Source: Diprion similis (lineage: Eukaryota; Arthropoda; Insecta; Hymenoptera; Diprionidae). From it: a DNA stretch of 64,000 nt. Positions 39,401 to 64,000 of this stretch are shown one piece after another. The stretch's first letter is position 1. The number at the start of each line of letters is the position of its first letter. The stretch covers positions 5,409,001 to 5,473,000 of the forward strand of contig NC_060113.1 in the NCBI RefSeq assembly GCF_021155765.1, read 5' to 3'. The notes beneath the pieces are model-generated. The model had not been told where the DNA came from and made no database searches. It was given only the letters and a program-made list of their open reading frames with translations. Position numbers and translations under genes: made by a program.

Positions 39401-42304
39401 AATTCGAAAACAGTCGTATAAATATTGCTTACGACAAACTGTTCGTTCCTAATTACAAAGACTAGGTCACATTTCCCGTCTCATTTCTTTCCATAAGCTC
39501 TAAGTGTTATGAAATCTTTCATTATTTCGACGTGTTCAGCAGCTATTAATTATCCACTGCCGGTATACGCGGACTGATCAATTCCCACGGGCCTATTGTC
39601 CGTCGTATTTTTACTCCGCGTAATTATACGCATTCCGACCGAATCGATCAATCATTTGAACAGATTATTATATTTGAACGTAATTTAATTTGAAACAACT
39701 TATATAAAGCAGTTGTTATATACATGTCCCCCTGCGTGGTATAACGTCACTGAATCATATTTTTATTGTAATAGCTGCAGTGGCAAGAAAAGTATTAGGA
39801 ACATCTGAACATTTCGTAAAATATATATTACAGTAGAAAATATGTATAACGTTGTTTCTCGTTCGTGATTATAATTTGAGGCCATGAGTAGACCGCCTTG
39901 ATTTGCTCGACGTACATACATACTTAATTCTGTTCAACCCTGGAAATAAAGCAGAATAGTATTATCGTATTACTGCATGCTTGAACATTACACGTTATAA
40001 TGCGGTTGAAGCTACGTGTATGCTCGTCTAATACGAATTAATACGTGAAATAAGAATACAAAAATGGCAATGATGAATTGCCACATTTTTGCATCGCTTG
40101 CACAATTATACTTACAGCGTGTATGTAACGACCTGATCGCGTGCCTTTGTGATAAATATATATTATACATGTATGCCCATGACAATTGTTCGGCACGTGT
40201 ATATTATATAGGTATAATATTGTACTTGCGTACACGTACGTTACGTATAATAGAAATGGGCCAAGGTATTCAGCCTAATTTCTAGAACCTAACGTCTCGA
40301 AGCAGTCTTATATTCTTTTACTTTCATCTCTTACACGCATACACTTATAAACATGTAATACGATGTGTACGATGTACACCAAAACGGACCCCACGCAAAT
40401 TAATCGTCAGCTGCAGGCGAGTGTAAGACTTATGAAATGTGTCGAAAAATGTGTTTACAATCTAAAGTCCGTTGCGCTCATGTATTAATAGTCTTCGACT
40501 TTTGATTTAAATTTTTTCTATAATAATTCAGGCCCTTATAACACTGCCAATAACGTATCGTATAGCAAATTGCGATTCACTGCAATTATAATGCTCAACG
40601 CGATCGCCGATCGAATGTTTATGCATTCAATTGTATTTCAAATATAGCCGGTCAAATATATCACCGCTCTATCCACCTTCTACAGATAAATATTTAGAAC
40701 TCCTGATTCCAACCGTTTATTACGGTATCTCCGATGTGATTTACTTAAGTGAACCAATATAGCTGCACATGCTAGTTTCCAGGTATAACGCCTGCGTAAT
40801 ATTTTTCCAATATAATAATATTTACAACCGCAGTGGAATAACACACGAATGTAAATAGGTAAAAAATCAGAATTCGAATGTATATTGCCGAACGATATTT
40901 TATTACATATATAAAGTATAACAAGGTACGTAAGTACGTACATTTACACATAAATACCAGTCAGAATTACTATGAAAATGCCGATGTGCAAATAAGCAGG
41001 TAAAAAGTTTTTAGAATCGTAAATCGCATGTCAATCGTCAAAGGGTATAACAAGATATATAAAGTTTGCGGAATGCGAATAATCAAGGGGTTTCTGACAC
41101 CTGGGTGACCTGGGAAGACAACCAACCCTTGGGTGGGGTTCGTATATCGATTCCAGAAACGTGCTCGGGGGGGGGGGGGGGGGGGGGGGGGGGGAGCAGT
41201 GCGTCACGAACACACCGCTTGGTGTTATCCCCGGCTGAAGGCACAGGAAAAGGTTCGAGGCGGTGGAAACGCTCCGGCAGTCAGACGCCGCTGCACTCCG
41301 TTGTCTCAAGTCTCGCGGCAGCTAGCTGGGGGCTGACGTTGCATCGCTGCTGCGTGCATTCGTGACTATAATTAATTATACACTAACAAGCTTGAAGTTC
41401 AGTAACTCAAGGCGCTGCTTTGCGGAGCGCGGGGCATGAGCGTCATCGATAATATATATATACTGTGTTGTTGTGTTGTGATCGGTGCAATTTGACGTTT
41501 TCCCCCAGAAACGGTAATTTTTCAAACCTTTGATATTTTTCCTATTTCACTGTCGGTTAGTTATATTGTATGTACACATACCTGCTGTAGTGTATAGGTA
41601 TTCGTAATTGTTATTATTTACCGAAAGAATTAATAGGGTGGAAATGTATATACGCTTTGCCGAGTCACGTAGCGTAACGCCGCCGAATATAATATACCTA
41701 TATCGTTCCTTGATTTGGATAAATATCTTTTTTTTTATATATATCTTTACATATGTACTTGATTTCGATAGTTTCTTTTCTCATTAAATTTTACAGTTAT
41801 ACTTGTGATTTTCAACTGCATCCTCGATCAACCGTATCTACTTGCATTCATTGATTACGTTTTTTAAATAATACTTGAAGAATATTACTGCATCTCTTAT
41901 TATATATCGGATTTCAACTCGGGATGTATAGGACGGTTGTTTTTGGCATAGCTGCAGGCTGATAACTCACTCGCAGTAGGCGTACATTTTTAAACGGAAA
42001 CGGTTAATTTTATTCCCTTACTTTACATTCTTTTCTCTGAGCCCGAATTTCGGATATTTACTTATTATAGCCCGACAAAACCTCTTCGGTCTTCGGTGAT
42101 ATTATTAAAATCTAGCAATCTTGAAATCAAACCCGTATTTACCGTAAAATGTGATAAATGGCATGTATCAATAATCAAACCATTGAAAATTATGTCTGCT
42201 AGATTAATGTAGTCTCAATATATTAATTCAAAGTGTATAGAAAGACAAATTGACAAATAAAGGTGACGTTTTTAATTTGTTTTCAATTTTTTGGAAATAG
42301 GAAA
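36467..42304. other. Long intergenic stretch between ODAD2 and the Dok-like gene
   Basis: No coding gene could be supported; all open frames are short and without known domains. Most is AT-rich low-complexity DNA with TA and TATG patches. From about 41050 the composition becomes more GC-rich, with a 28-G run, and this probably marks the promoter side of the Dok-like gene. A donor-like ACG/GTAATT at 41513/41514 and an acceptor-like AATAG just before the ATG at 42305 suggest a 5' UTR intron. Confidence 0.5.
41167..41194. repeat. Poly-G tract, 28 bases
   Basis: An uninterrupted run of G in otherwise AT-rich DNA, about 320 bases before a possible non-coding first exon of the Dok-like gene. Its exact length may be an assembly or sequencing artefact. 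Confidence 0.85.
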
Positions 42305-44168
42305 ATGGCTGGCGAAGATGCGGAGATTTGTGGTTTTCTGGATGCCAAACTACCTGGCAACAGAGGAATGACCCAAAGAGTAAAAAAACGTTCTCTAGCA
42401 CCTTGGAAGGTCTGGAGACGTCATTGGTGTTCGGTGAGAAAATTGGGTCCGGGTCTTGGAATAGAAGTTAGATTAGACTGTGGTATAAGTAGCGGCGGAG
42501 CTACGGTACCTAAGGATCGTGATAACGCGATAAAAATACCAGCAGATGCCATTATCTGTCGTACAGAATCCAGGTCCAAACAATTTGCCTTTGGTATTTT
42601 TCCTCCGAGTGAAAGAAAACCTCTTCTATATCTCTGTGGAAATTCTGAAACTGAAAGTCAACGCTGGATGGCAAATTTTAGGCAGATACTTAAGCCCAGA
42701 AGACATCGTTTTATGGAAGGAATGTTCCATATTTCTATGGTCGATAATGCACATTCAAGAGGTGCAGGTCTCACAGGTATTAGAAGTTAAATAAAATTTT
42801 GAAATTTTACCTGCATTGCGAATATACAGTTTTTTCTTAGCACATTGTTCGGTATTTTCATTAATATACCAACATTTTAGTACTTGGATACTGTAAAATA
42901 CTTTGTTATTGTTATGCACAGTTGGTATTTTAACATCCTGTTAGCTGATACATTCGACTGTTAAAAGCCTCATGATTTAGTGTTATTTTTTTTTTTTTTT
43001 TTTCATCTTTAATGTTATCACTACAGCAGTGACTGCATTTCTGTTGTCTTGTGATTGCAGGGCTTCATGGCGACCTGGTAGCCAGTCGCTTGGGCGTTTT
43101 TGTCAAGGACGTCAATTCTGGAGAAATAAAAGAAAGCTTGGAATGGAAAGAGTTGAGTCAATTTCATCTCCCAGCCGCAGGTCGACCGGAAGATGTTAAA
43201 CGAATTTGTGTAATTCACACGTCTAAAGAATTTCGTGGGGGTGTTGGTGAATTGCATTTATTCTGCTTTGAAGCCGTTAGATTACTCCAGGACTTTGTAA
43301 CACAGGGAAGAGGACCAAGACACAAGCATCTAAATCAGCGGCCTTTGAGTCTTAGTGAAGGAGATTTGAGAATTTCTATTCATAATGATGGGGACTCTGG
43401 TACTTTTCCCGTATTGAAATCCAAAGTTGCATCCAGTTTGATAAGTGCTGGCTTGGGCTTGTTATTGTCGACAAGATCTGGTAGCGAGGCAAAGTTATTA
43501 GATGACATATCAGAGAACAAACTTTTGGAAAAAATATCCCGTTCAAAAATGAACATGTGCACCCGAGCTGTCGACAATGTTTATCAACCAGAACCAGCCA
43601 GTATTCCAAACATTGGATCTAGTCTAGAAGAACTAGAAGAACCTTGTCCGAGAAGAGTGTCTAACATCTCAGTTGCTTCGGGTATCTATGAAGAGATAAT
43701 GGACGAAATTGATCCATCAAGGACTATAAAAATGCCACTCAATTTGTACGAAGACCCAGAGGAACTGCTTTTTGGACCTTGCGGCCCCAGACAACCCCCT
43801 CCGCCCTTACCTCCAAGACAACGCTGTGGATCTGGATCAACTCGTAATGGAAGGTTAGTGACAACATTACCGTTTAAGGCAACGCGAATCGAAACTCTAC
43901 TAGGAAGTTGAAAAGATCAAATTTCATACGAATTTCTTTACCGTACAGCATAAGTGATGATGGTCTGGATTCGGAAGGTGGAACGAGATCAGCTACGCCA
44001 AGTACCCAAGATGATACCACACCAACGCCAACGCCAGAGGATAAGACAAATACAGGCCACACGCCGATTGATAATTCGGAATATGTTCCGATGTCTCCAC
44101 GACTAAAAGATATCGTGCAACAAGACCAAAATCCTGCTCAGGAAGACTTTTACATGATAATGCGCTGA
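42305..44168 (+). CDS. Dok: Dok/IRS-family adaptor with PH and PTB domains, three coding exons
   Basis: Coding exons are 42305-42776, 43061-43853 and 43949-44168; they join in frame to 494 residues. Residues about 5-133 look like a PH domain (ICGFLDAKLPG at the start, RRHWCSVRKLG, SETESQRWMANFRQIL at the C-terminal helix). Residues about 158-245 look like an IRS-type PTB domain (LHGDLVASRLGVFVKD, then GELHLFCFEAVRLL). The tail is rich in Tyr and Pro motifs: YEEI (Tyr367), YEDP (Tyr387), PPLPPRQR (405-412), YVPM (Tyr467) and YMIM (Tyr490). Such adaptors bind activated receptors through the PTB domain, are phosphorylated in the tail and recruit SH2 proteins. Two YxxM sites suggest PI3-kinase binding, as in IRS proteins, but the short length fits Dok better than the much longer Chico/IRS. 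The gene symbol is a best guess. The ATG at 42305 follows an acceptor-like AATAG, so the 5' UTR is probably spliced. Confidence 0.75.
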
Positions 44169-45752: not shown

Positions 45753-46232
45753 TTAAAATTCATTTTTTCTCTTTCCCATTGCATTTTCTGCTGTACTTTT
45801 GCGAGCCTTTCTCTCAAACACTGCTTTGTTTAAACGATATTCTTCAGCTATTTCAGCCATAAGTGGATCATCGGGATTTGGATAACTGAGTAGTAGTTGA
45901 ACGGCAGTCAGTAAATTTTCTATACTTATTGTTGGTTTCCAGCCTCCTTTGGGTGGCATTTTTAACAAGTCCATACAGATTCTTCCTGCGTCATCTATGT
46001 TGGGGTGGTAAACAGGTGTCAAAAACTTCAGCCTAGGTGGTTCAAAAGGGTAACTTTCTGGGATTTCAATTTCTAGTTGGAATAATCCACCCTCGTAAGG
46101 ACTTCCAAGTGGCCCCAAGATATTTGCTGCCAAAACATCAATTTTGTCACTCTTCGGATAGCAGCAAATACCCTCTGGGGGATTTTCTGCCATTTTTGCC
46201 AGTTCTCTCTTCATTCTCAATGCTTTTTGCAT
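45753..46232 (-). CDS. UBE2T: UBE2T-type E2 ubiquitin-conjugating enzyme
   Basis: A single uninterrupted frame of 159 residues from an ATG at 46232. It reads MQKALRMKRELAKMAENPPEG at the N-terminus, as in vertebrate UBE2T. The UBC fold is complete: YPFEPPRLKFLTPVYHPNID holds the HPN motif (76-78), followed by DAGRICMDLL with the catalytic Cys86 (the same position as in human UBE2T), PPKGGWKP, and SYPNPDDPLMAEIAEEY near the end. UBE2T works with FANCL to monoubiquitinate FANCD2/FANCI in interstrand crosslink repair. The protein lacks the longer C-terminal tail of the human form (197 residues). An acceptor-like TTTTGCAG lies just upstream of the ATG, so a non-coding first exon probably exists further right. 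It is the last gene before the satellite array. Confidence 0.93.
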   Translation of the reverse strand: MQKALRMKRELAKMAENPPEGICCYPKSDKIDVLAANILGPLGSPYEGGLFQLEIEIPESYPFEPPRLKFLTPVYHPNIDDAGRICMDLLKMPPKGGWKPTISIENLLTAVQLLLSYPNPDDPLMAEIAEEYRLNKAVFERKARKSTAENAMGKRKNEF

Positions 46233-47449
46233 TTCACGTTGAAAAATTTCTGCAAAATGTACAGAAAAAACTTCTTTTCATAACAACCACTTAGCATGCA
46301 TGATGTACTGACTACATAAAATATTGCTATTCCGAATTATTTCAAAGTTCTAAAACAACCTGGCAACCCGAATTCAAACAGATGATTTAAGCGTAAAGTT
46401 AATTATATCTATTCTTGTTCATATTTGAATGTACTTTCACTACAATAAATTATTTTAGGGGGTTTTTGAAATATATATGCACTAAGAAATAGTATCATCA
46501 GATTTGAGGTTAGCAAATGGTACAGGAATTTTTGTAACTAGTTTTTCCCGTCATTTCGTTATACACAAAGTGGATTATTTCTCTTAGAAAAAATCAAATC
46601 CTAACTTCGGATACAATTCATAAAAATTAGCAGCCACGCGGCAAATCAGGGCTGATCTTCAAGATATGTTTTTTTTAATTATTTTTGCACACTGATCTAT
46701 CGTAAACAAACTCGAGCGAGATTGTATGAAATATTTAACAAACAATTTTTATTAAAAGCTGAGATAGTCCAGAGTGACCAATTTCACTCAATGAAATCCT
46801 ATACCAATTCGTTCAAAATCTGACCAACGTTTACCGACTTAGTTCTGGAGTAAAAAAATTATTAATTTTACATCCATAATTTCGTCCTAACGGTATTTTT
46901 TTCTCAAGTTGAAATGATTCGGCCGGCAGGTTCACTTACTTATAATAACAGATTCTACGGAAAATACGTGCAAAATTTAAAAAGAAAATTACTTTTGAAT
47001 ACTTTTGAAGTATAGGGCATAGGGACAAGCAAGTACGAGTTGCGCTCCACAGACAATTTATAATTTAGGTTGCGCTCATCTTCGTACCGTTGAGATACCG
47101 AGGTATTTTACTCGCCACTAACTAAACAGTTCCAACACACATAATTTGGTATGGGGCTGTGCAGAGAGCTCCGGTACAGAAACTTCCTACAGTTGCCGAC
47201 CTGGTTAGTGCAGTTAGTATTTCGAACCTGTCAAAGAGTCCTATAATCTGTTGACCTATATAGAATGTTTGATGATATTGGTAAATGCGATTGAGTCAGC
47301 TGGGTTTAATGAATTATCATATTGATTGATAACCAAATGATTTGCGAACTATAACCTTTGGAGTATGTCTTGCATTTCAATAGTATGATTGGGAAATTTG
47401 GCTGAAATTTGAACGATAGGTTCATTTAACCTTCCCGTCCTCGTTGGTA
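46233..47449. other. UBE2T upstream region bordering the satellite
   Basis: This should contain the UBE2T promoter and any non-coding first exon. I recognise no other gene. The right end grades into sequence that increasingly resembles the satellite monomer. Confidence 0.5.
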
Positions 47450-47860
47450 TATCGACGTAACTCTGCAGAATTCGATTCTCATAAGTCTTGAGCTCACTGT
47501 AGACAGTGGATCAGAAATTGCAGCCGTGAAACAGTGTATTAAGGTGCGTTTTTCAAGTTCCCCGGGGTCTGATGATTGAGATATAGCGTATTACGAATAG
47601 ATTCTGGAATAGAAATATTTTCACCTGAAAAAAAAGGAAGGTTAAATCCTTCTGGATTTTCTTGGGGTTCGACTCAGTCAATTGAGACTCATAAAAATCG
47701 ATTCTGAGACAAAAATTGTTTGGCTCAAGGAAATAGGTGAGGCTAACCCATTTGAACTTTTAGGCAAAGGTTCGAGGATTCTGAAAGGTGTTGCAATATA
47801 TTCTTTCAGACTATTTCACTATTCCGACGTAATTTTGCGAGATAAGGATAACCCTTTGGA
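47450..47860 (+). repeat. Decayed, rearranged left edge of the 312-bp satellite
   Basis: Fragments of the monomer are recognisable but heavily diverged. Around 47511-47567, GATCAGAAATTGCAGCC and TTAAGGTGCGTTTTTCAAG mirror GATCAAAAGTTACAGCC and TTAAGGTGTTTTTTGAG of the regular unit. At 47740-47845 a near-normal stretch (GAGGCTAACCC through TATTCCGACGTAATTTTGCG) is cut and joined straight to ATAACCCTTTGGATTTTTGG. That skips most of one monomer, as expected from an unequal exchange or deletion. Confidence 0.8.
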
Positions 47861-50800
47861 TTTTTGGCGAAAATTTCGACGACTTTGAAAAGTCATGCAT
47901 TTAATTTTTTAGGGCACTGTTCCAAAGTAATTTTGCAAGAGGAATCGATTGAGCGCAGCCCCAATACGCTGCGAGCAACGGATCAAAAGTTACAGCCATA
48001 AAACTGCAGATTTTCATCGTCATTTCTCTGCTGTTGGTCCTACGCTTATTTCAAGGTGTTTTTTGAGTTCCTGGTGTTCCAATTAGCCTAGGAACGGTCA
48101 TACAAATCAATTTGGTGACCAGAAATTTTCAGCCCTAAAAATCGCAAAAAAAGTAAGGCTAACCCCTTTGGATTTTTGGCGGAAATTTCGACGACTTTGA
48201 AAAGTGCTGCAATTAATTCTTTAGGGCACTATTCCGACGTAATTTTGCGAAAGGAATCGATTGAGCGCAGTCCCAATACGCTGCGAGCGACGGATCAAAA
48301 GTTACAGCCAAAAAACTGCAGATTTCCATCGTCATTTCTCTGCTGTTGGTCCTACGCTTATTTTAATGTGTTTTTTGAGTTCCTGGTGTTCCAATTAGCC
48401 TAGAAACGGTCATACAAATCAATTCGGAGACCAGAAATTTTTGGCTCTAAAAATCGCAAAAAAAGTAAGGCTAACCCCTTTGGATTTTTGGCGAAAATTT
48501 CGACGACTTTGAAAAGTGCTGCAATTAATTCTTTAGGGCACTATTCCGACGTAATTTTGCGAAAGGAATCGATTGAGCGCAGTCCCAATACGCTGCGAGC
48601 GACGGATCAAAAGTTACAGCCAAAAAACTGCAGATTTCCATCGTCATTTCTCTGCTGTTGGTCCTACGCTTATTTTAATGTGTTTTTTGAGTTCCTGGTG
48701 TTCCAATTAGCCTAGAAACGGTCATACAAATCAATTCGGAGACCAGAAATTTTTGGCTCTGAAAATCGCAAAAAAAGTAAGGCTAACCCCTTTGGATTTT
48801 TGGCGAAAATTTCGACGACTTTGAAAAGTGCTGCAATTAATTCTTTAGGGCACTATTCCGACGTGATTTTGCGAAAGGAATCGATTGAGCGCAGTCCCAA
48901 TACGCTGCGAGCGACGGATCAAAAGTTACAGCCAAAAAACTGCAGATTTCCATCGTCATTTCTCTGCTGTTGGTCCTACGCTTATTTTAATGTGTTTTTT
49001 GAGTTCCTGGTGTTCCAATTAGCCTAGAAACGGTCATACAAATCAATTCGGAGACCAGTAATTTTTGGCTCTAAAAATCGCAAAAAAAGTAAGGCTAACC
49101 CCTTTGGATTTTTGGCGAAAATTTCGACGACTTTGAAAAGAGCTGCGATTAATTCTTTAGGGCACTATTCCGACGTAATTTTTCGAGTGGAATCGATTGA
49201 GCGCAGTCCCAATACGCTGCGAGCGACGGATCAAAAGTTACAGCCAAAAAACTGCAGATTTCCATCGTCATTTCTCTGCTGTTGGTCCTACGCTTATTTT
49301 AATGTGTTTTTTGAGTTCCTGGTGTTCCAATTAGCCTAGAAACGGTCATACAAATCAATTCGGTAACCAGAAATTTTTGGCTCTAAAAATCGCAAAAAAA
49401 GTAAAGCTAACCCCTTTGGATTTTTGGCGAAAATTTCAACGACTTTGAAAAGTGCTGCAATTAATTCTTTAGGGCACTATTCCGACGTAATTTTGCGAAA
49501 GGAATCGATTGAGCGCAGTCCCAATACGCTGCGAGCGACGGATCAAAAGTTACAGCCAAAAAACTGCAGATTTCCATCGTCATTTCTCTGCTGTTGGTCC
49601 TACGCTTATTTTAATGTGTTTTTTGAGTTCCTGGTGTTCCAATTAGCCTAGAAACGGTCATACAAATCAATTCGGAAACCAGAAATTTTTGGTTCTAAAA
49701 ATCGCAAAAAAAGTAAGGCTAACCCCTTTGGATTTTTGGCGAAAATTTCGACGACTTTGAAAAGTGCTGCAATTAATTCTTTAGGGCACTATTCCGACGT
49801 AATTTTGCGAGAGGAATCGATTGAGCGCAGTCCCAATACGCTGCGAGCGACGGATCAAAAGTTACAGCCAAAAAACGGCAGATTTCCATCGTCATTTCTC
49901 TGCTGTTGGTCCTACGCTTATTTTAATGTGTTTTTTGAGTTCCTGGTGTTCCAATTAGCCTAGAAACGGTCATACAAATCAATTCGGAGACCAGAAATTT
50001 TTGGCTCTAAAAATCGCAAAAAAAGTAAGGCTAACCCCTTTGGATTTTTGGCGAAAATTTCGACGACTTTGAAAAGTGCTGCAATTAATTCTTTAGGGCA
50101 CTATTCCGACGTAATTTTTCGAGAGAAATCGATTGAGCGCAGTCCCAATACGCTGCGAGCGACGGATCAAAAGTTACAGCCAAAAAACTGCAGATTTCCA
50201 TCGTCATTTCTCTGCTGTTGGTCCTACGCTTATTTTAAGGTGTTTGTTGGGTTCCTAGTGTTCCAATTAGCCTAGAAACGGTCATACAAATCAATTCGGA
50301 GACCAGAAATTTTTGGCTCTAAAAATCGCAAAAAAAGTAAGGCTAACCCCTTTGGATTTTTGGCGAAAATTTCGACGACTTTGAAAAGTGCTGCAATTAA
50401 TTCTTTAGGGCACTATTCCGACGTAATTTTTCTAGAGGAATCGATTGAGCGCAGTCCCAATACGCTGCGAGCGACGGATCAAAAGTTACAGCCAAAAAAC
50501 TGCAGATTTCCATCGTCATTTCTCTGCTGTTGGTCCTAGGCTTATTTTAATGTGTATTTTGAGTTCCTGGTGTTCCAATTAGCCTAGAAACGGTCATACA
50601 AATCAATTCGGAGACCAGAAAATTTTTGGCTCTAACAATCGCAAAAAAAGTAAGGCTAACCCCTTTGGATTTTTGGCGAAAATTTCGACGACTTTGAAAA
50701 GTGCTGCAATTAATTCTTTAGGGCACTATTCCGACGTAATTTTGCGAGAGGAATCGATTGAGCGCAGTCCCAATACGCTGCGAGCAACGGATCAAAGATA

Positions 50801-53800
50801 CAGCCAAAAAACTGCAGATTTCCATCGTCATTTCTCTGCTGTTGGTCCTACGCTTATTTCAATGTGTTTTTTGAGTTCCTGGTGTTCCAATTAGCCTAGA
50901 AACGGTCATACAAATCAATTCGAAGACCAGAAATTTTTGGCTCTAAAAATCGCAAAAAAAGTAAGGCTAACCCCTTTGGATTTTTGGCGAAAATTTCGAC
51001 GACTTTGAAAAGTGCTGCAATTAATTCTTTAGGGCACTATTCCGACGTAATTTTTCGAGAGGAATCGATTGAGCGCAGTCCCAATACGCTGCGAGCAACG
51101 GATCAAAGATACAGCCAAAAAACTGCAGATTTCCATCGTCATTTCTCTGCTGTTGGTCCTACGCTTATTTCAATGTGTTTTTTGAGTTCCTGGTGTTCCA
51201 ATTAGCCTAGAAACGGTCATACAAATCAATTCGGAGACCAGAAATTTTTGGCTCTAAAAATCGCAAAAAAAGTAAGGCTAACCCCTTTGGATTTTTGGCG
51301 AAAATTTCGACGACTTTGAAAAGTGCTGCAATTAATTCTTTAGGGCACTATTCCGACGTAATTTTTCGAGAGGGATCGATTGAGCGCAGTCCCAATACGC
51401 TGCGAGCAACGGATCAAAAATTACAGCCAAAAAACTGCAGATTTCCATCGTCATTTCTCTGCTGTTGGTCCTACGCTTATTTTAATGTGTTTTTTGAGTT
51501 CCTGGTGTTCCAATTAGCCTAGAAACGGTCATACAAATCAATTCGGAGACCAGAAATTTTTGGCTCTAAAAATCGCAAAAAAAGTAAGGCTAACCCCTTT
51601 GGATTTTTGGCGAAAATTTCGACGACTCTGAAAAGTGCTGCAATTAATTCTTTAGGGCACTATTCCGACGTAATTTTGCGAAAGGAATCGATTGAGCGCA
51701 GTCCCAATACGCTGCGAGCGACGGATCAAAAGTTACAGCCAAAAAACTGCAGATTTCCATCGTCATTTCTCTGCTGTTGGTCCTACGCTTATTTTAATGT
51801 GTTTTTTGAGTTCCTGGTGTTCCAATTAGCCTAGAAACGGTCATACAAATCAATTCGGAGACCAGAAATTTTTGGCTCTAAAAATCGCAAAAAAAGTAAG
51901 GCTAACCCCTTTGGATTTTTGGCGAAAATTTCGACGACTTTGAAAAGTGCTGCAATTAATTCTTTAGGGCACTATTCCGACGTAATTTTGCGAAAGGAAT
52001 CGATTGAGCGCAGTCCCAATACGCTGCGAGCGACGGATCAAAAGTTACAGCCAAAAAACTGCAGATTTCCATCGTCATTTCTCTGCTGTTGGTCCTACGC
52101 TTATTTTAATGTGTTTTTTGAGTTCCTGGTGTTCCAATTAGCCTAGAAACGGTCATACAAATCAATTCGGAGACCAGAAATTTTTGGCTCTAAAAATCGC
52201 AAAAAAAGTAAGGCTAACCCCTTTGGATTTTTGGCGAAAATTTCGACGACTTTGAAAAGTGCTGCAATTGATTCTTTAGGGCACTATTCCGACGTAATTT
52301 TGCGAAAGGAATCGATTGAGCGCAGTCCCAATACGCTGCGAGCGACGGATCAAAAGTTACAGCCAAAAAACTGCAGATTTCCATCGTCATTTCTCTGCTG
52401 TTGGTCCTACGCTTATTTTAATGCGTTTTTTGAGTTCCTGGTGTTCCAATTAGCCTAGAAACGGTCATACAAATCAATTCGGAGACCAGAAATTTTTGGC
52501 TCTAAAAATCGCAAAAAAAGTAAGGCTAACCCCTTTGGATTTTTGGCGAAAATTTCGACGACTTTGAAAAGTGCTGCAATTAATTCTTGAGGGCACTATT
52601 CCGACGTAATTTTTCGAGAGGAATCGATTGAGCGCAGTCCCAATACGCTGCGAGCAACGGATCAAAAATTACAGCCAAAAAACTGCAGATTTCCATCGTC
52701 ATTTCTCTGCTGTTGGTCCTACGCTTATTTTAATGTGTTTTTTGAGTTCCTGGTGTTCCAATTAGCCTAGAAACGGTCATACAAATCAATTCGGAGACCA
52801 GAAATTTTTGGCTCTAAAAATCGCAAAAAAAGTAAGGCTAACCCCTTTGGATTTTTGGCGAAAATTTCGACGACTTTGAAAAGTGCTGCAATTAATTCTT
52901 TAGGGCACTATTCCGACGTAATTTTTCGAGAGGAATCGATTGAGCGCAGTCCCAATACGCTGCGAGCAACGGATCAAAAGTTACAGCCAAAAAACTGCAG
53001 ATTTCCATCGTCATTTCTCTGCTGTTGGTCCTACGCTTATTTTAATGTGTTTTTTGAGTTCCTGGTGTTCCAATTAGCCTAGAAACGGTCATACAAATCA
53101 ATTCGGAGACCAGAAATTTTTGGCTCTAAAAATCGCAAAAAAAGTAAGGCTAACCCCTTTGGATTTTTGGCGAAAATTTCGACGACTTTGAAAAGTGCTG
53201 CAATTAATTCTTTAGGGCACTATTCCGACGTAATTTTGCGAAAGGAATCGATTGAGCGCAGTCCCAATACGCTGCGAGCGACGGATCAAAAGTTACAGCC
53301 AAAAAACTGCAGATTTCCATCGTCATTTCTCTGCTGTTGGTCCTACGCTTATTTTAATGTGTTTTTTGAGTTCCTGGTGTTCCAATTAGCCTAGAAACGG
53401 TCATACAAATCAATTCGGAGACCAGAAATTTTTGGCTCTAAAAATCGCAAAAAAAGTAAGGCTAACCCCTTTGGATTTTTGGCGAAAATTTCGACGACTT
53501 TGAAAAGTGCTGCAATTAATTCTTTAGGGCACTATTCCGACGTAATTTTGCGAAAGGAATCGATTGAGCGCAGTCCCAATACGCTGCGAGCGACGGATCA
53601 AAAGTTACAGCCAAAAAACTGCAGATTTCCATCGTCATTTCTCTGCTGTTGGTCCTACGCTTATTTTAATGTGTTTTTTGAGTTCCTGGTCTTCCAATTA
53701 GCCTAGAAACGGTCATACAAATCAATTCGGAGACCAGAAATTTTTGGCTCTAAAAATCGCAAAAAAAGTAAGGCTAACCCCTTTGGATTTTTGGCGAAAA

Positions 53801-56800
53801 TTTCGACGACTTTGAAAAGTGCTGCAATTAATTCTTTAGGGCACTATTCCGACGTAATTTTTCGAGAGGAATCGATTGAGCGCAGTCCCAATACGCTGCG
53901 AGCAACGGATCAAAAATTACAGCCAAAAAACTGCAGATTTCCATCGTCATTTCTCTGCTGTTGGTCCTACGCTTATTTTAATGTGTTTTTTGAGTTCCTG
54001 GTGTTCCAATTAGCCTAGAAACGGTCATACAAATCAATTCGGAGACCAGAAATTTTTGGCTCTAAAAATCGCAAAAAAAGTAAGGCTAACCCCTTTGGAT
54101 TTTTGGCGAAAATTTCGACGACTTTGAAAAGTGCTGCAATTAATTCTTTAGGGCACTATTCCGACGTAATTTTTCGAGAGGAATCGATTGAGCGCAGTCC
54201 CAATACGCTGCGAGCAACGGATCAAAAGTTACAGCCAAAAAACTGCAGATTTCCATCGTCATTTCTCTGCTGTTGGTCCTACGCTTATTTTAATGTGTTT
54301 TTTGAGTTCCTGGTGTTCCAATTAGCCTAGAAACGGTCATACAAATCAATTCGGAGACCAGAAATTTTTGGCTCTAAAAATCGCAAAAGAAGTAAGGCTA
54401 ACCCCTTTGGATTTTTGGCGAAAATTTCGACGACTTTGAAAAGTGCTGCAATTATTTCTTTAGGGCACTATTCCGACGTAATTTTTCGAAAGGAATCGAT
54501 TGAGCGCAGTCCCAATACGCTGCGAGCGACGGATCAAAAGTTACAGCCAAAAAACTGCAGATTTCCATCGTCATTTCTCTGCTGTTGGTCCTACGCTTAT
54601 TTTAATGTGTTTTTTGAGTTCCTGGTGTTCCAATTAGCCTAGAAACGGTCATACAAATCAATTCGGAGACCAGAAATTTTTGGCTCTAAAAATCGCAAAA
54701 AAAGTAAGGCTAACCCCTTTGGATTTTTGGCGAAAATTTCGACGACTTTGAAAAGTGCTGCAATTAATTCTTTAGGGCACTATTCCGACGTAATTTTTCG
54801 AGAGGAATCGATTGAGCGCAGTCCCAATACGCTGCGAGCAACGGATCAAAAGTTACAGCCAAAAAACTGCAGATTTCCATCGTCATTTCTCTGCTGTTGG
54901 TCCTACGCTTATTTTAAGGTGTTTGTTGGGTTCCTAGTGTTCCAATTAGCCTAGAAACGGTCATACAAATCAATTCGGAGACCAGAAATTTTTGGCTCTA
55001 AAAATCGCAAAAAAAGTAAGGCTAACCCCTTTGGATTTTTGGCGAAAATTTCGACGACTTTGAAAAGTGCTGCAATTAATTCTTTAGGGCACTATTCCGA
55101 CGTAATTTTGCGAGAGGAATCGATTGAGCGCAGTCCCAATACGCTGCGAGCGACGGATCAAAAGTTACAGCCAAAAAACTGCAGATTTCCATCGTCATTT
55201 CTCTGCTGTTGGTCCTACGCTTATTTTAATGTGTTTTTTGAGTTCCTGGTGTTCCAATTAGCCTAGAAACGGTCATACAAATCAATTCGGAGACCAGAAA
55301 TTTTTGGCTCTAAAAATCGCAAAAAAAGTAAGGCTAACCCCTTTGGATTTTTGGCGAAAATTTTGACGACTTTGAAAAGTGCTGCAATTAATTCTTTAGG
55401 ACACTATTCCGACGTAATTTTTCGAGAGAAATCGATTGAGCGCAGTCCCAATACGCTGCGAGCAACGGATCAAAAGTGACAGCCAAAAAACTGCAGATTT
55501 CCATCGTCATTTCTCTGCTGTTGGTCCTACGCTTATTTTAAGGTGTTTGTTGGGTTCCTAGTGTTCCAATTAGCCTAGAAACGGTCATACAAATCAATTC
55601 GGAGACCAGAAATTTTTGGCTCTAAAAATCGCAAAAAAAGTAAGGCTAACCCCTTTGGATTTTTGGCGAAAATTTCGACGACTTTGAAAAGTGCTGCAAT
55701 TAATTCTTTAGGGCATTATTCCGACGTAATTTTTCGAGAGGAATCGATTGAGCGCAGTCCCAATACGCTGCGAGCAACGGATCAAAAGTTACAGCCAAAA
55801 AACTGCAGATTTCCATCGTCATTTCTCTGCTGTTGGTCCTACGCTTATTTTAAGGTGTTTGTTGGGTTCCTGGTGTTCCAATTAGCCTAGAAACGGTCAT
55901 ACAAATCAATTCGGAGACCAGAAATTTTTGGCTCTAAAAATCGCAAAAAAAGTAGGGCTAACCCCTTTGGATTTTTGGCGAAAATTTCGACGACTTTGAA
56001 AAGTGCTGCAATTATTTCTTTAGGGCACTATTCCGACGTAATTTTGCGAGAGGAATCGATTGAGCGCAGTCCCAATACGCTGCGAGCGACGGATCAAAAG
56101 TTACAGCCAAAAAACTGCAGAATTCCATCGTCATTTCTCTGCTGTTGGTCCTACGCTTATTTTAATGTGTTTTTTGAGTTCCTGGTGTTCCAATTAGCCT
56201 AGAAACGGTCATACAAATCAATTCGGAGACCAGAAATTTTTGGCTCTAAAAATCGCAAAAAAAGTAAGGCTAACCCCTTTGGATTTTTGGCGAAAATTTC
56301 GACGACTTTGAAAAGTGCTGCAATTAATTCTTTAGGGCACTATTCCGACGTAATTTTTCGAGAGGAATCGATTGAGCGCAGTCCCAATACGCTGCGAGCA
56401 ACGGATCAAAAGTTACAGCCAAAAAACTGCAGATTTCCATCGTCATTTCTCTGCTGTTGGTCCTACGCTTATTTTAATGTGTTTTTTGAGTTCCTGGTGT
56501 TCCAATTAGCCTAGAAACGGTCATACAAATCAATTCGAAGACCAGAAATTTTTGGCTCTAAAAATCGCAAAAAAAGTAAGGCTAACCCCTTTGGATTTTT
56601 GGCGAAAATTTCGACGACTTTGAAAAGTGCTGCAATTATTTCTTTAGGGCACTATTCCGACGTAATTTTTCGAGAGGAATCGATTGAGCGCAGTCCCAAT
56701 ACGCTGCGAGCAACGGATCAAAAGTTACAGCCAAAAAACTGCAGATTTCCATCGTCATTTCTCTGCTGTTGGTCCTACGCTTATTTTAAGGTGTTTGTTG

Positions 56801-59800
56801 GGTTCCTAGTGTTCCAATTAGCCTAGAAACGGTCATACAAATCAATTCGGAGACCAGAAATTTTTGGCTCTAAAAATCGCAAAAAAAGTAAGGCTAACCC
56901 CTTTGGATTTTTGGCGAAGATTTCGACGACTTTGAAAAGTGCTGCAATTAATTCTTTAGGGCACTATTTCGACGTAATTTTTCGAGAGGAATCGATTGAG
57001 CGCAGTCCCAATACGCTGCGAGCAACGGATCAAAAGTTACAGCCAAAAAACTGCAGATTTCCATCGTCTTTTCTCTGCTGTTGGTCCTACGCTTATTTTA
57101 ATGTGTTTTTTGAGTTCCTGGTGTTCCAATTAGCCTAGAAACGGTCATACGAATCAATTCGGAGACCAGAAATTTTTGGCTCTAAAAATCGCAAAAAAAG
57201 TAAGGCTAACCCCTTTGGATTTTTGGCGAAAATTTCGACGACTTTGAAAAGTGCTGCAATTAATTCTTTAGGGCACTATTCCGACGTAATTTTTCGAGAG
57301 GAATCGATTGAGCGCAGTCCCAATACGCTGCGAGCAACGGATCAAAAGTTACAGCCAAAAAACTGCAGATTTCCATCGTCATTTCTCTGCTGTTGGTCCT
57401 ACGCTTATTTGAAGGTGTTTGTTGGGTTCCTAGTGTTCCAATTAGCCTAGAAACGGTCATACAAATCGATTCGGAGACCAGAAATTTTTGGCTCTAAAAA
57501 TCGCAAAAAAAGTAAGGCTAACCCCTTTGGATTTTTGGCGAAAATTTCGACGACTTTGAAAAGTGCTGCAATTAATTCTTTAGGGCACTATTTCGACCCA
57601 ATTTTTCGAGAGGAATCGATTGAGCGCAGTCCCAATACGCTGCGAGCGACGGATCAAAAGTTACAGCCAAAAAACTGCAGATTTCCATCGTCATTTCTCT
57701 GCTGTTGGTCCTACGCTTATTTTAATGTGTTTTTGGAGTTCCCGGTGTTCCAATTAGCCTAGAAACGGTCATACAAATCAATTCGGAGACCAGAAGTTTT
57801 TAGCTCTAAAAATCGCAAAAAAAGTAAGGCTAACCCCTTTGGATTTTTGGCGAAAATTTCGACGACTTTGAAAAGTGCTGCAATTAATTCTTTAGGGCAC
57901 TATTCCGACGTAATTTTTCGAGAGGAATCGATTGAGCGCAGTCCCAATACGCTGCGAGCAACGGATCAAAAGTTACAGCCAAAAAACTGCAGATTTCCAT
58001 CGTCATTTCTCTGCTGTTGGTCCTACGCTTATTTTAAGGTGTTTGTTGGGTTCCTAGTGTTCCAATTAGCCTAGAAACGGTCATACAAATCAATTCGGAG
58101 ACCAGAAATTTTTGGCTCTAAAAATCGCAAAAAAAGTAAGGCTAACCCCTTTGGATTTTTGGCGAAAATTTCGACGACTTTGAAAAGTGCTGCAATTGAT
58201 TCTTTAGGGCACGATTCAGACGTAATTTTTCGAGAGGAATCGATTGAGCGCAGTCCCAATACGCTGCGAGCGACGGATCAAAAGTTACAGCCAAAAAACT
58301 GCAGATTTCCATCGTCATTTCTCTGCTGTTGGTCCTAGGCTTATTTTAATTCGTATTTTGAGTTCCTGGTGTTCCAATTAGCCTAGAAACGGTCATACAA
58401 ATCAATTCGGAGACCAGAAATTTTTGGCTCTAAAAATCGCAAAAAAAGTAAGGCTAACCCCTTTGGATTTTTGGCGAAGATTTCGACGACTTTGAAAAGT
58501 GCTGCAATTAATTCTTTAGGGCACTATTTCGACGTAATTTTTCGAGAGGAATCGATTGAGCGCAGTCCCAATACGCTGCGAGCAACGGATCAAAAGTTAC
58601 AGCCAAAAAACTGCAGATTTCCATCGTCTTTTCTCTGCTGTTGGTCCTACGCTTATTTTAATGTGTTTTTTGAGTTCCTGGTGTTCCAATTAGCCTAGAA
58701 ACGGTCATACGAATCAATTCGGAGACCAGAAATTTTTGGCTCTAAAAATCGCAAAAAAAGTAAGGCTAACCCCTTTGGATTTTTGGCGAAAATTTCGACG
58801 ACTTTGAAAAGTGCTGCAATTAATTCTTTAGGGCACTATTCCGACGTAATTTTTCGAGAGGAATCGATTGAGCGCAGTCCCAATACGCTGCGAGCAACGG
58901 ATCAAAAGTTACAGCCAAAAAACTGCAGATTTCCATCGTCATTTCTCTGCTGTTGGTCCTACGCTTATTTGAAGGTGTTTGTTGGGTTCCTAGTGTTCCA
59001 ATTAGCCTAGAAACGGTCATACAAATCGATTCGGAGACCAGAAATTTTTGGCTCTAAAAATCGCAAAAAAAGTAAGGCTAACCCCTTTGGATTTTTGGCG
59101 AAAATTTCGACGACTTTGAAAAGTGCTGCAATTAATTCTTTAGGGCACTATTTCGACCCAATTTTTCGAGAGGAATCGATTGAGCGCAGTCCCAATACGC
59201 TGCGAGCGACGGATCAAAAGTTACAGCCAAAAAACTGCAGATTTCCATCGTCATTTCTCTGCTGTTGGTCCTACGCTTATTTTAATGTGTTTTTGGAGTT
59301 CCCGGTGTTCCAATTAGCCTAGAAACGGTCATACAAATCAATTCGGAGACCAGAAGTTTTTAGCTCTAAAAATCGCAAAAAAAGTAAGGCTAACCCCTTT
59401 GGATTTTTGGCGAAAATTTCGACGACTTTGAAAAGTGCTGCAATTAATTCTTTAGGGCACTATTCCGACGTAATTTTTCGAGAGGAATCGATTGAGCGCA
59501 GTCCCAATACGCTGCGAGCAACGGATCAAAAGTTACAGCCAAAAAACTGCAGATTTCCATCGTCATTTCTCTGCTGTTGGTCCTACGCTTATTTTAAGGT
59601 GTTTGTTGGGTTCCTAGTGTTCCAATTAGCCTAGAAACGGTCATACAAATCAATTCGGAGACCAGAAATTTTTGGCTCTAAAAATCGCAAAAAAAGTAAG
59701 GCTAACCCCTTTGGATTTTTGGCGAAAATTTCGACGACTTTGAAAAGTGCTGCAATTGATTCTTTAGGGCACGATTCAGACGTAATTTTTCGAGAGGAAT

Positions 59801-62800
59801 CGATTGAGCGCAGTCCCAATACGCTGCGAGCGACGGATCAAAAGTTACAGCCAAAAAACTGCAGATTTCCATCGTCATTTCTCTGCTGTTGGTCCTAGGC
59901 TTATTTTAATGTGTATTTTGAGTTCCTGGTGTTCCAATTAGCCTAGAAACGGTCATACAAATCAATTCGGAGACCAGAAATTTTTGGCTCTAAAAATCGC
60001 AAAAAAAGTAAGGCTAACCCCTTTGGATTTTTGGCGAAGATTTCGACGACTTTGAAAAGTGCTGCAATTAATTCTTTAGGGCACTATTTCGACGTAATTT
60101 TTCGAGAGGAATCGATTGAGCGCAGTCCCAATACGCTGCGAGCAACGGATCAAAAGTTACAGCCAAAAAACTGCAGATTTCCATCGTCATTTCTCTGCTG
60201 TTGGTCCTACGCTTATTTTAATGTGTTTTTTGAGTTCCTGGTGTTCCAATTAGCCTAGAAACGGTCATACGAATCAATTCGGAGACCAGAAATTTTTGGC
60301 TCTAAAAATCGCAAAAAAAGTAAGGCTAACCCCTTTGGATTTTTGGCGAAAATTTCGACGACTTTGAAAAGTGCTGCAATTAATTCTTTAGGGCACTATT
60401 CCGACGTAATTTTTCGAGAGGAATCGATTGAGCGCAGTCCCAATACGCTGCGAGCAACGGATCAAAAGTTACAGCCAAAAAACTGCAGATTTCCATCGTC
60501 ATTTCTCTGCTGTTGGTCCTACGCTTATTTGAAGGTGTTTGTTGGGTTCCTAGTGTTCCAATTAGCCTAGAAACGGTCATACAAATCGATTCGGAGACCA
60601 GAAATTTTTGGCTCTAAAAATCGCAAAAAAAGTAAGGCTAACCCCTTTGGATTTTTGGCGAAAATTTCGACGACTTTGAAAAGTGCTGCAATTAATTCTT
60701 TAGGGCACTATTTCGACCCAATTTTTCGAGAGGAATCGATTGAGCGCAGTCCCAATACGCTGCGAGCGACGGATCAAAAGTTACAGCCAAAAAACTGCAG
60801 ATTTCCATCGTCATTTCTCTGCTGTTGGTCCTACGCTTATTTTAATGTGTTTTTGGAGTTCCCGGTGTTCCAATTAGCCTAGAAACGGTCATACAAATCA
60901 ATTCGGAGACCAGAAGTTTTTAGCTCTAAAAATCGCAAAAAAAGTAAGGCTAACCCCTTTGGATTTTTGGCGAAAATTTCGACGACTTTGAAAAGTGCTG
61001 CAATTAATTCTTTAGGGCACTATTCCGACGTAATTTTCCGAGAGGAATCGATTGAGCGCAGTCCCAATACGCTGCGAGCAACGGATCAAAAGTTACAGCC
61101 AAAAAACTGCAGATTTCCATCGTCATTTCTCTGCTGTTGGTCCTACGCTTATTTTAAGGTGTTTGTTGGGTTCCTAGTGTTCCAATTAGCCTAGAAACGG
61201 TCATACAAATCAATTCGGAGACCAGAAATTTTTGGCTCTAAAAATCGCAAAAAAAGTAAGGCTAACCCCTTTGGATTTTTGGCGAAAATTTCGACGACTT
61301 TGAAAAGTGCTGCAATTGATTCTTTAGGGCACGATTCAGACGTAATTTTTCGAGAGGAATCGATTGAGCGCAGTCCCAATACGCTGCGAGCGACGGATCA
61401 AAAGTTACAGCCAAAAAACTGCAGATTTCCATCGTCATTTCTCTGCTGTTGGTCCTACGCTTATTTTAATGTGTTTTTGGAGTTCCTGGTGTTCCAATTA
61501 GCCTAGAAACGGTCATACAAATCAATTCGGAGACCAGAAATTTTTGGCTCTAAAAATCGCAAAAAAAGTAAGGCTAACCCCTTTGGATTTTTGGCGAAAA
61601 TTTCGACGACTTTGAAAAGAGCTGCGATTAATTCTTTAGGGCACAATTCCGACGTAATTTTTCGAGAGGAATCGATTGAGCGCAGTCCCAATACGCTGCG
61701 AGCGACGGATCGAAAGTTACAGCCAAAAAACTGCAGATTTCCATCGTCATTTCTCTGCTGTTGGTCCTACGCTTATTTTAATGTGTTTTTTGAGTTCCTG
61801 GTGTTCCAATTAGCCTAGAAACGGTCATACAAATCAATTCGGAGACCAGAAATTTTTGGCTCTAAATATCGCAAAAAAAGTAAGGCTAACCCCTTTGGAT
61901 TTTTGGCGAAAATTTCGACGACTTTGAAAAGTGCTGCAATTAATTCTTTAGGGCACTATTCCGACGTAATTTTGCGAAAGGAATCGATTGAGCGCAGTCC
62001 CAATACGCTGCGAGCGACGGATCAAAAGTTACAGCCAAAAAACTGCAGATTTCCATCGTCATTTCTCTGCTGTTGGTCCTACGCTTATTTTAATGTGTTT
62101 TTTGAGTTCCTGGTGTTCCAATTAGCCTAGAAACGGTCATACAAATCAATTCGGAGACCAGAAATTTTTGGCTCTAAAAATCGCAAAAAAAGTAAGGCTA
62201 ACCCCTTTGGATTTTTGGCGAAAATTTCGACGACTTTGAAAAGTGCTGCAATTAATTCTTTAGGGCACTATTCCGACGTAATTTTGCGAAAGGAATCGAT
62301 TGAGCGCAGTCCCAATACGCTGCGAGCGACGGATCAAAAGTTACAGCCAAAAAACTGCAGATTTCCATCGTCATTTCTCTGCTGTTGGTCCTACGCTTAT
62401 TTTAATGTGTTTTTTGAGTTCCTGGTGTTCCAATTAGCCTAGAAACGGTCATACAAATCAATTCGGAGACCAGAAATTTTTGGCTCTAAAAATCGCAAAA
62501 AAAGTAAGGCTAACCCCTTTGGATTTTTGGCGAAAATTTCGACGACTTTGAAAAGTGCTGCAATTAATTCTTTAGGGCACTATTCCGACGTAATTTTTCG
62601 AGAGGAATCGATTGAGCGCAGTCCCAATACGCTGCGAGCAACGGATCAAAAATTACAGCCAAAAAACTGCAGATTTCCATCGTCATTTCTCTGCTGTTGG
62701 TCCTACGCTTATTTTAATGTGTTTTTTGAGTTCCTGGTGTTCCAATTAGCCTAGAAACGGTCATACAAATCAATTCGGAGACCAGAAATTTTTGGCTCTA

Positions 62801-64000
62801 AATATCGCAAAAAAAGTAAGGCTAACCCCTTTGGATTTTTGGCGAAAATTTCGACGACTTTGAAAAGTGCTGCAATTAATTCTTTAGGGCACTATTCCGA
62901 CGTAATTTTGCGAAAGGAATCGATTGAGCGCAGTCCCAATACGCTGCGAGCGACGGATCAAAAGTTACAGCCAAAAAACTGCAGATTTCCATCGTCATTT
63001 CTCTGCTGTTGGTCCTACGCTTATTTTAATGTGTTTTTTGAGTTCCTGGTGTTCCAATTAGCCTAGAAACGGTCATACAAATCAATTCGGAGACCAGAAA
63101 TTTTTGGCTCTAAAAATCGCAAAAAAAGTAAGGCTAACCCCTTTGGATTTTTGGCGAAGATTTCGACGACTTTGAAAAGTGCTGCAATTAATTCTTTAGG
63201 GCACTATTTCGACGTAATTTTTCGAGAGGAATCGATTGAGCGCAGTCCCAATACGCTGCGAGCAACGGATCAAAAGTTACAGCCAAAAAACTGCAGATTT
63301 CCATCGTCATTTCTCTGCTGTTGGTCCTACGCTTATTTTAATGTGTTTTTTGAGTTCCTGGTGTTCCAATTAGCCTAGAAACGGTCATACAAATCAATTC
63401 GGAGACCAGAAATTTTTGGCTCTAAAAATCGCAAAAGAAGTAAGGCTAACCCCTTTGGATTTTTGGCGAAAATTTCGACGACTTTGAAAAGTGCTGCAAT
63501 TATTTCTTTAGGGCACTATTCCGACGTAATTTTTCGAAAGGAATCGATTGAGCGCAGTCCCAATACGCTGCGAGCGACGGATCAAAAGTTACAGCCAAAA
63601 AACTGCAGATTTCCATCGTCATTTCTCTGCTGTTGGTCCTACGCTTATTTTAATGTGTTTTTTGAGTTCCTGGTGTTCCAATTAGCCTAGAAACGGTCAT
63701 ACAAATCAATTCGGAGACCAGAAATTTTTGGCTCTAAAAATCGCAAAAAAAGTAAGGCTAACCCCTTTGGATTTTTGGCGAAAATTTCGACGACTTTGAA
63801 AAGTGCTGCAATTAATTCTTTAGGGCACTATTCCGACGTAATTTTTCGAGAGGAATCGATTGAGCGCAGTCCCAATACGCTGCGAGCAACGGATCAAAAG
63901 TTACAGCCAAAAAACTGCAGATTTCCATCGTCATTTCTCTGCTGTTGGTCCTACGCTTATTTTAAGGTGTTTGTTGGGTTCCTAGTGTTCCAATTAGCCT
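47861..64000 (+). repeat. 312-bp tandem satellite array, about 52 monomers, open at right edge
   Basis: Direct head-to-tail copies run from about 47861 to the last base. Using GGATTTTTGGCGAAAATTTC as the register, unit starts fall every 312 bases from 48176 to 63775, which is 50 intervals. The first unit (about 47864) is already more diverged. Three units depart slightly from 312: one is longer by a base near 50620, and the two starting near 50673 and 50984 are 311 because of a CAAAGATACAG variant. All copies share one orientation. Each has a short interrupted palindrome CGAAAATTTCG, a perfect AATCGATT palindrome, the conserved core GAGCGCAGTCCCAATACGC and an A-rich stretch ATCGCAAAAAAAGTAAGG. 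No unit carries an ATG-initiated frame of any length. The array has the form of a (peri)centromeric or heterochromatic satellite. I do not recognise the family. Confidence 0.97.
56911..61590 (+). repeat. Higher-order repeat: three copies of a five-monomer (1560-bp) block
   Basis: Five monomer variants recur in fixed order. A has CACTATTTCGACG (56911, 58471, 60031). B has TTATTTGAAGGTG (57223, 58783, 60343). C has TATTTCGACCCAATT and TTTTTGGAGTTCCCGG (57535, 59095, 60655). D has AAGGTGTTTGTTGGG (57847, 59407, 60967). E has CACGATTCAGACG (58159, 59719, 61279). The blocks are nearly identical. I saw only a few differences, for example TAATTCGTATTTTG against TAATGTGTATTTTG in E, a CTTTTC/CATTTC change in A, and a TTCCGAG change in the third D. 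Block identity is much higher than between neighbouring monomers, the mark of recent block amplification. Confidence 0.93.

Follow-up and report, generated by a model that had tools for sequence, protein, structure and literature searches.

The Edge of a Near-Uniform 312-bp Satellite Array Beside Genes in the Sawfly Diprion similis

Introduction

Satellite families of Diadromus, Eupelmus, and Diprion have been reported in parasitoid wasps and sawflies (PMC8122249, PMC13192020), and the satellite monomer of Trichogramma brassicae has been described as 385 bp long with 80-bp inverted repeats (PMC13081366). Long arrays with higher-order organization are also known from the (peri)centromeric satellites of Tribolium, which show macro-dyad symmetry (PMC13081366). 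Higher-order structure is widespread: among 171 species with Sanger data, it was reported in 76 (PMC4053949). In alpha satellite, distinguishable monomers of 171 bp are amplified as one multimer, and monomeric units lie at centromere edges (PMC8122249).

The window analyzed in this study, i.e., the whole stretch of 64,000 nucleotides from Diprion similis, ends on its right side in a tandem array of 312-bp units. Like the T. brassicae satellite, this array is an insect tandem repeat of comparable monomer length, whereas the inverted repeats described for that species have no counterpart beyond chance in the present consensus, whose inverted self-similarity (dyad symmetry) was equalled by 29 of 200 shuffles. 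The satellites of Diadromus, Eupelmus, and Diprion are also insect tandem repeats. Similarly, the Tribolium satellites form long insect arrays with higher-order organization; unlike them, as described, the present array has no orientation inversion in 16 kb. With alpha satellite and other higher-order satellites it shares the amplification of distinguishable monomers as one multimer, but it differs from alpha satellite in its longer monomer, about three higher-order copies, little monomer divergence, and a consensus that has no CENP-B-like box. In sandalwood, a 312-bp repeat is the most abundant tandem unit of the genome (PMC11633456); this is a plant repeat whose known likeness is monomer length, and the shared length is probably a coincidence.

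The locus is, with high probability, the edge of an ordinary non-coding 312-bp satellite block that is kept near-uniform through unequal crossing-over and gene conversion. The evidence for this reading, and for the alternatives to it, is presented below.

A Long Head-to-Tail Array

Tandem Repeats Finder (TRF) described a head-to-tail array of 312-bp units at 47843-64000 (51.8 copies, 97% matches, 0% indels), which is far beyond chance. Segmentation at a fixed phase from 47845 gave 51 complete monomers, 47 of them 312 bp long, three 311 bp, and one 313 bp, followed by a partial monomer of 246 bp that is ended by the window edge at 64000, in agreement with the approximately 52 head-to-tail units counted in the first-pass annotation. 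The complete monomers have a mean pairwise identity of 97.5%, and 51 of the 52 units are 97.1-99.7% identical to the consensus, the exception being the diverged edge unit m00, which is the first complete monomer (47845-48155, plus strand; 24 differences from the consensus, 92.3% identity). All units have one orientation, and no consensus 15-mers in reverse orientation were present within 47300-64000. The consensus has a G+C content of 40.4%, compared with 34.9% in the first 47.3 kb of the window. A long head-to-tail array of one monomer, as expected of satellite DNA, is thus what the sequence contains.

Decayed Units at the Boundary

The transition from unique DNA to satellite had been read as a sharp step with the array starting at 47861. 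The tandem array itself is real, but its boundary is gradual: decayed, truncated units precede it, and satellite sequence extends securely from 47539 and doubtfully from 47312-47390. The outermost piece (47312-47532, plus strand) is a tentative remnant of a decayed unit, detected by nhmmer and by shuffled local alignment. The nhmmer match covers 47390-47534 and profile positions 13-163 with an E-value of 0.0096, and the local alignment score of this doubtful piece was equalled by three of 300 shuffles. The next piece (47539-47660, plus strand) is a decayed, truncated unit comprising consensus positions ~208-312 and then 1-21; permissive blastn aligned 47545-47660 with the monomer at 62.9% identity over 124 columns (E = 3.5e-4). 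It is followed by a decayed unit at 47659-47842 (plus strand; consensus 225-312 and then 1-97), which matched the monomer at 69.6-72% identity in blastn with E-values down to 2e-24 and whose join to the array omits most of one unit. For neither of these two secure pieces did any of 300 shuffles reach the observed alignment score.

As read from the alignments, the unit sequence absent at the two secure joins amounts to ~203 and ~213 bp (similar sizes), so that the edge pieces are truncated remnants. If the doubtful piece is real, ~45-50 bp of monomer would be omitted at the join that follows it. Unequal crossing-over predicts decay toward the flank at the ends of an array, and under the preferred reading of an ordinary satellite edge, units would decay and become truncated where the array meets its flank.

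The boundary also bears on the quality of the assembly. Assemblies of tandem arrays readily collapse or expand, and such an artifact might in principle have affected the junction or the repeat count. Because decayed units of the same orientation lie between the nearest gene and the array, as at a natural edge and unlike a chimeric join, a chimeric junction is unlikely, and an artifact as a whole is considered very improbable, also in view of the differences among the higher-order copies described below.

Flanking Genes

The nearest gene, which lies outside the array at 45753-46232 on the minus strand, is a single open reading frame (ORF) for a UBE2T-like E2 enzyme (Pfam UQ_con, 7.2e-43). Its best PDB match is 1yh2 (2.2e-60), named HSPC150, which we take to be UBE2T, and the second is 5ngz (3.5e-60), named UBE2T, whose residues 1-156 align with residues 1-156 of the query. 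As this alignment begins at residue 1, the start codon of the E2 gene is placed at 46232. The first complete monomer is 1.6 kb away from there and the first secure remnant 1.3 kb, instead of the approximately 1.2 kb initially given between start codon and array. Further left, Pfam searches identified parts of three more genes: a Src-type kinase gene, a member of the TB2/DP1/HVA22 family, and a gene with ARM repeats; the first of these, with its SH3 and tyrosine-kinase ORFs, is presumably an animal gene. The encoded proteins resemble those of insects, perhaps of Hymenoptera. The earlier description of a satellite array adjoining genes was therefore borne out by the tandem array and the ORFs nearby.

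Several other features were observed in this flank. Two ORFs of 178 and 292 amino acids in 42254-43911 had no Pfam match at an E-value of 0.001; by eye they resemble a Dok-type adaptor, in which a PH domain is followed by a PTB domain. Two direct copies of 260 nt (18815-19074 and 21808-22067) are 74% identical and are possibly members of a small non-autonomous element family; the second copy overlaps a fold-back whose arms (21819-21941 and 22019-22141) are 76% complementary. A run of 28 G at 41167-41194, which is striking in a flank of ~35% G+C, would in one frame encode a polyglycine stretch of the ORF at 41063-41365. In addition, an imperfect 49-nt inverted repeat at 38913-39018 (arms 82% complementary and separated by 8 nt) has the size of a microRNA precursor or a foldback element.

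The proximity of the Src-type kinase, DP1/HVA22-family, ARM-repeat, and UBE2T-like E2 genes is what would be seen if the array were modest in size, unconnected with the centromere, and either subtelomeric or interstitial within euchromatin, and beetle satellites have been reported in euchromatin, some of them near genes (PMC3411249, PMC11049206). A small euchromatic tandem array would have the same appearance as the present one. On the other side, no telomeric runs (at least two units of TTAGG, TTAGGG, or TCAGG) occur on either strand of the window, and no dispersed monomers were detected left of 47386 at nhmmer E-values below 1, where blastn with stricter scoring returned only matches of 19-23 bp (best E-value 0.45) that were judged to be chance; an interstitial array is still compatible with both results. 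This alternative is a possible one that deserves some weight without being the probable one. The setting preferred here is a heterochromatin edge, which is most likely, and probably a pericentromeric one. It should be mentioned that centromeric blocks are usually longer than 16 kb and that the window edge hides the true size of the array.

Content of the Monomer

Stop codons are present in all 306 unit-frames (51 complete units in six frames each), no Pfam domain scored above cut-off in two of the six consensus frames, and no Rfam family reached gathering score, as expected of non-coding satellite DNA. As 312 equals 3 x 104, reading frames stay in register between units, and a gene for a tandem-repeat protein might be imagined, especially since one consensus frame is interrupted by just one stop over its 104 codons and since a bacterial ice adhesin consists of 104-residue repeats (PMC4083281). 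The stops in every frame of the complete units refute a continuous protein product of the array, and among the two plus-strand consensus frames (of six) that were compared with Pfam domains, the best score was 12.9 bits against a cut-off of 28, leaving this explanation with practically no probability.

No RNA gene was detected either. The whole window contained no Rfam family at gathering score and no tRNA at threshold. Six sub-threshold Rfam matches up to E = 5 were obtained in 47300-49500, none of which was a hammerhead ribozyme; the best (lsy-6, 22.7 bits versus 60) and the others were judged to be chance. Besides, one unit folded as DNA gave a z-score of -0.56 (a fold as good or better was obtained for 27 of 100 shuffles), and phased A-tracts in the consensus were not significant, 20 of 200 shuffles being as strong. 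The idea that the 312-bp unit arose by doubling of a half-unit was also rejected, as the internal direct similarity was reached by 168 of 200 shuffles. The CENP-B box is a 17-bp motif; no CENP-B-like box with at least seven of nine core positions occurs on either strand of the monomer consensus, a level that was reached by 184 of 300 shuffles.

With respect to previous descriptions, six oligonucleotides from the monomer had no match in 5.39 million open-access papers, suggesting that the 312-bp satellite family may be undescribed. This is consistent with the monomer having been called unrecognised at first sight, and it is a weak test because papers seldom print monomers. A search of the open literature by monomer length likewise revealed no 312-bp insect satellite, judging by titles, abstract openings, or passages; the figure of 312 bp given for Chironomus tentans is a mean exon length and not a satellite (PMC4192438). 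An exact 26-mer of the monomer had no match in viral contigs, an exact 22-mer had none in prokaryote genomes (patterns with only 26 occurrences in the 52-unit array itself), and two monomers had no blastn match in phage records. Such negatives are expected for a eukaryotic satellite, and little is learned from them.

A Pentamer Amplified within the Array

The array had been called a homogeneous satellite, which holds for its mean identity but not for its internal structure. At 56809-61457 (plus strand), comparison at a lag of 1560 bp and permutations revealed a pentameric higher-order repeat with 2.98 tandem copies of 1560 bp (5 x 312 bp). Within it, 56809-59897 differs from the sequence 1560 bp downstream by four mismatches in 3089 bp, and the variant barcode shows three near-identical five-monomer copies (m29-m33, m34-m38, and m39-m43). 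Identities at this lag were used within the block only, since elsewhere the 311-bp and 313-bp units put the comparison out of register. When the order of the units was permuted, a lag of five units had the strongest excess of identity among lags 1-20 (z = 5.9, reached in none of 2000 permutations), and lag 10 was second (also none of 2000). These permutations, as well as the variant and four-gamete counts below, were based on 50 of the 52 units, m00 and the partial last unit being left out.

Pairwise comparison of the three copies gave 2, 5, and 7 differing bases, whereas monomers inside one copy differ by 2-14 per 312 bases (95.5-99.4% alike); copies more alike than the monomers inside them are the mark of a higher-order repeat, found here locally and in about three copies. 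The same differences indicate that the assembly has not pasted one copy thrice, which also argues against an artifact. The array to the left (48156-56808, plus strand), delimited by segmentation and variant barcode, is not claimed to hold any higher-order unit; a second, four-monomer pattern from ~51275 was rejected, as 9 and 12 differences separate its copies and lag 4 has no excess (equalled in 1311 of 2000 permutations). To the right (61458-64000, plus strand, ended by the window edge), m45, m46, and m48 are identical to m13 and m17 on the left of the block, and m50 is identical to m21. The presence of the same monomer types on either side suggests that the pentamer probably expanded inside an older array.

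A pentamer block with other monomers around it and decayed units at the edge recalls alpha satellite, raising the question of whether the locus is a functional centromere core, i.e., a CENP-A site with higher-order repeats active as in human alpha satellite. Several observations make such a core unlikely: there are merely 2.98 higher-order copies, a gene is found within 2 kb, the consensus has no CENP-B-like box at the level given above, and the five monomers are closely alike, whereas greater divergence is typical of the alpha-satellite units that make up one higher-order repeat (PMC8122249).

Variant Patterns and Exchange among Monomers

In an allele-specific count over the 50 units, all four combinations occurred for 27 of the 300 pairs formed by common variant alleles, which requires at least three exchange intervals within 312 bp. 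The linked variants at 212/219/223/230 (GGGA) were all present in 10 units, all absent in 39, and mixed in one. Conversion or crossing-over within monomers is supported by these data; repeated mutation could yield some of the four-combination pairs. Neighboring units do not resemble each other more than units paired at random, lags 1, 3, and 4 having no excess and the identity at lag 2 being reached in 95 of 2000 permutations. As no clear excess was detected at lags 1-4, local exchange between neighbors is not clearly indicated outside the pentamer block. The high mean identity, the pentamer block, and the four-combination pairs together represent the pattern of concerted evolution.

The longest stretch free of variants in the 50 units spans monomer positions 101-133. 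A run of this length arose in 3% of random placements (uncorrected), and it is a weak hint at most of a conserved block. Early higher-order repeat formation in an older monomeric array beside genes, which could mark renewal of a (peri)centromere in this lineage and in which block 101-133 may bind protein, is regarded as an improbable reading of the same data.

Conclusions

For the ordinary satellite edge favored here, exchange between misaligned copies, by unequal crossing-over and gene conversion, would keep the array near-uniform, as its variant patterns suggest. The block, which would be heterochromatic, may act, if at all, as bulk chromatin and probably has no encoded product. The array behaves as ordinary satellite DNA, with nothing unusual about it, and adds one case and no principle. 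Its junction offers a readable satellite edge, from decayed and truncated units through a diverged first full unit to near-uniform units, and the array also displays a locally amplified higher-order unit on both sides of which identical monomers occur. If undescribed, the monomer would be a useful chromosome probe for this species.
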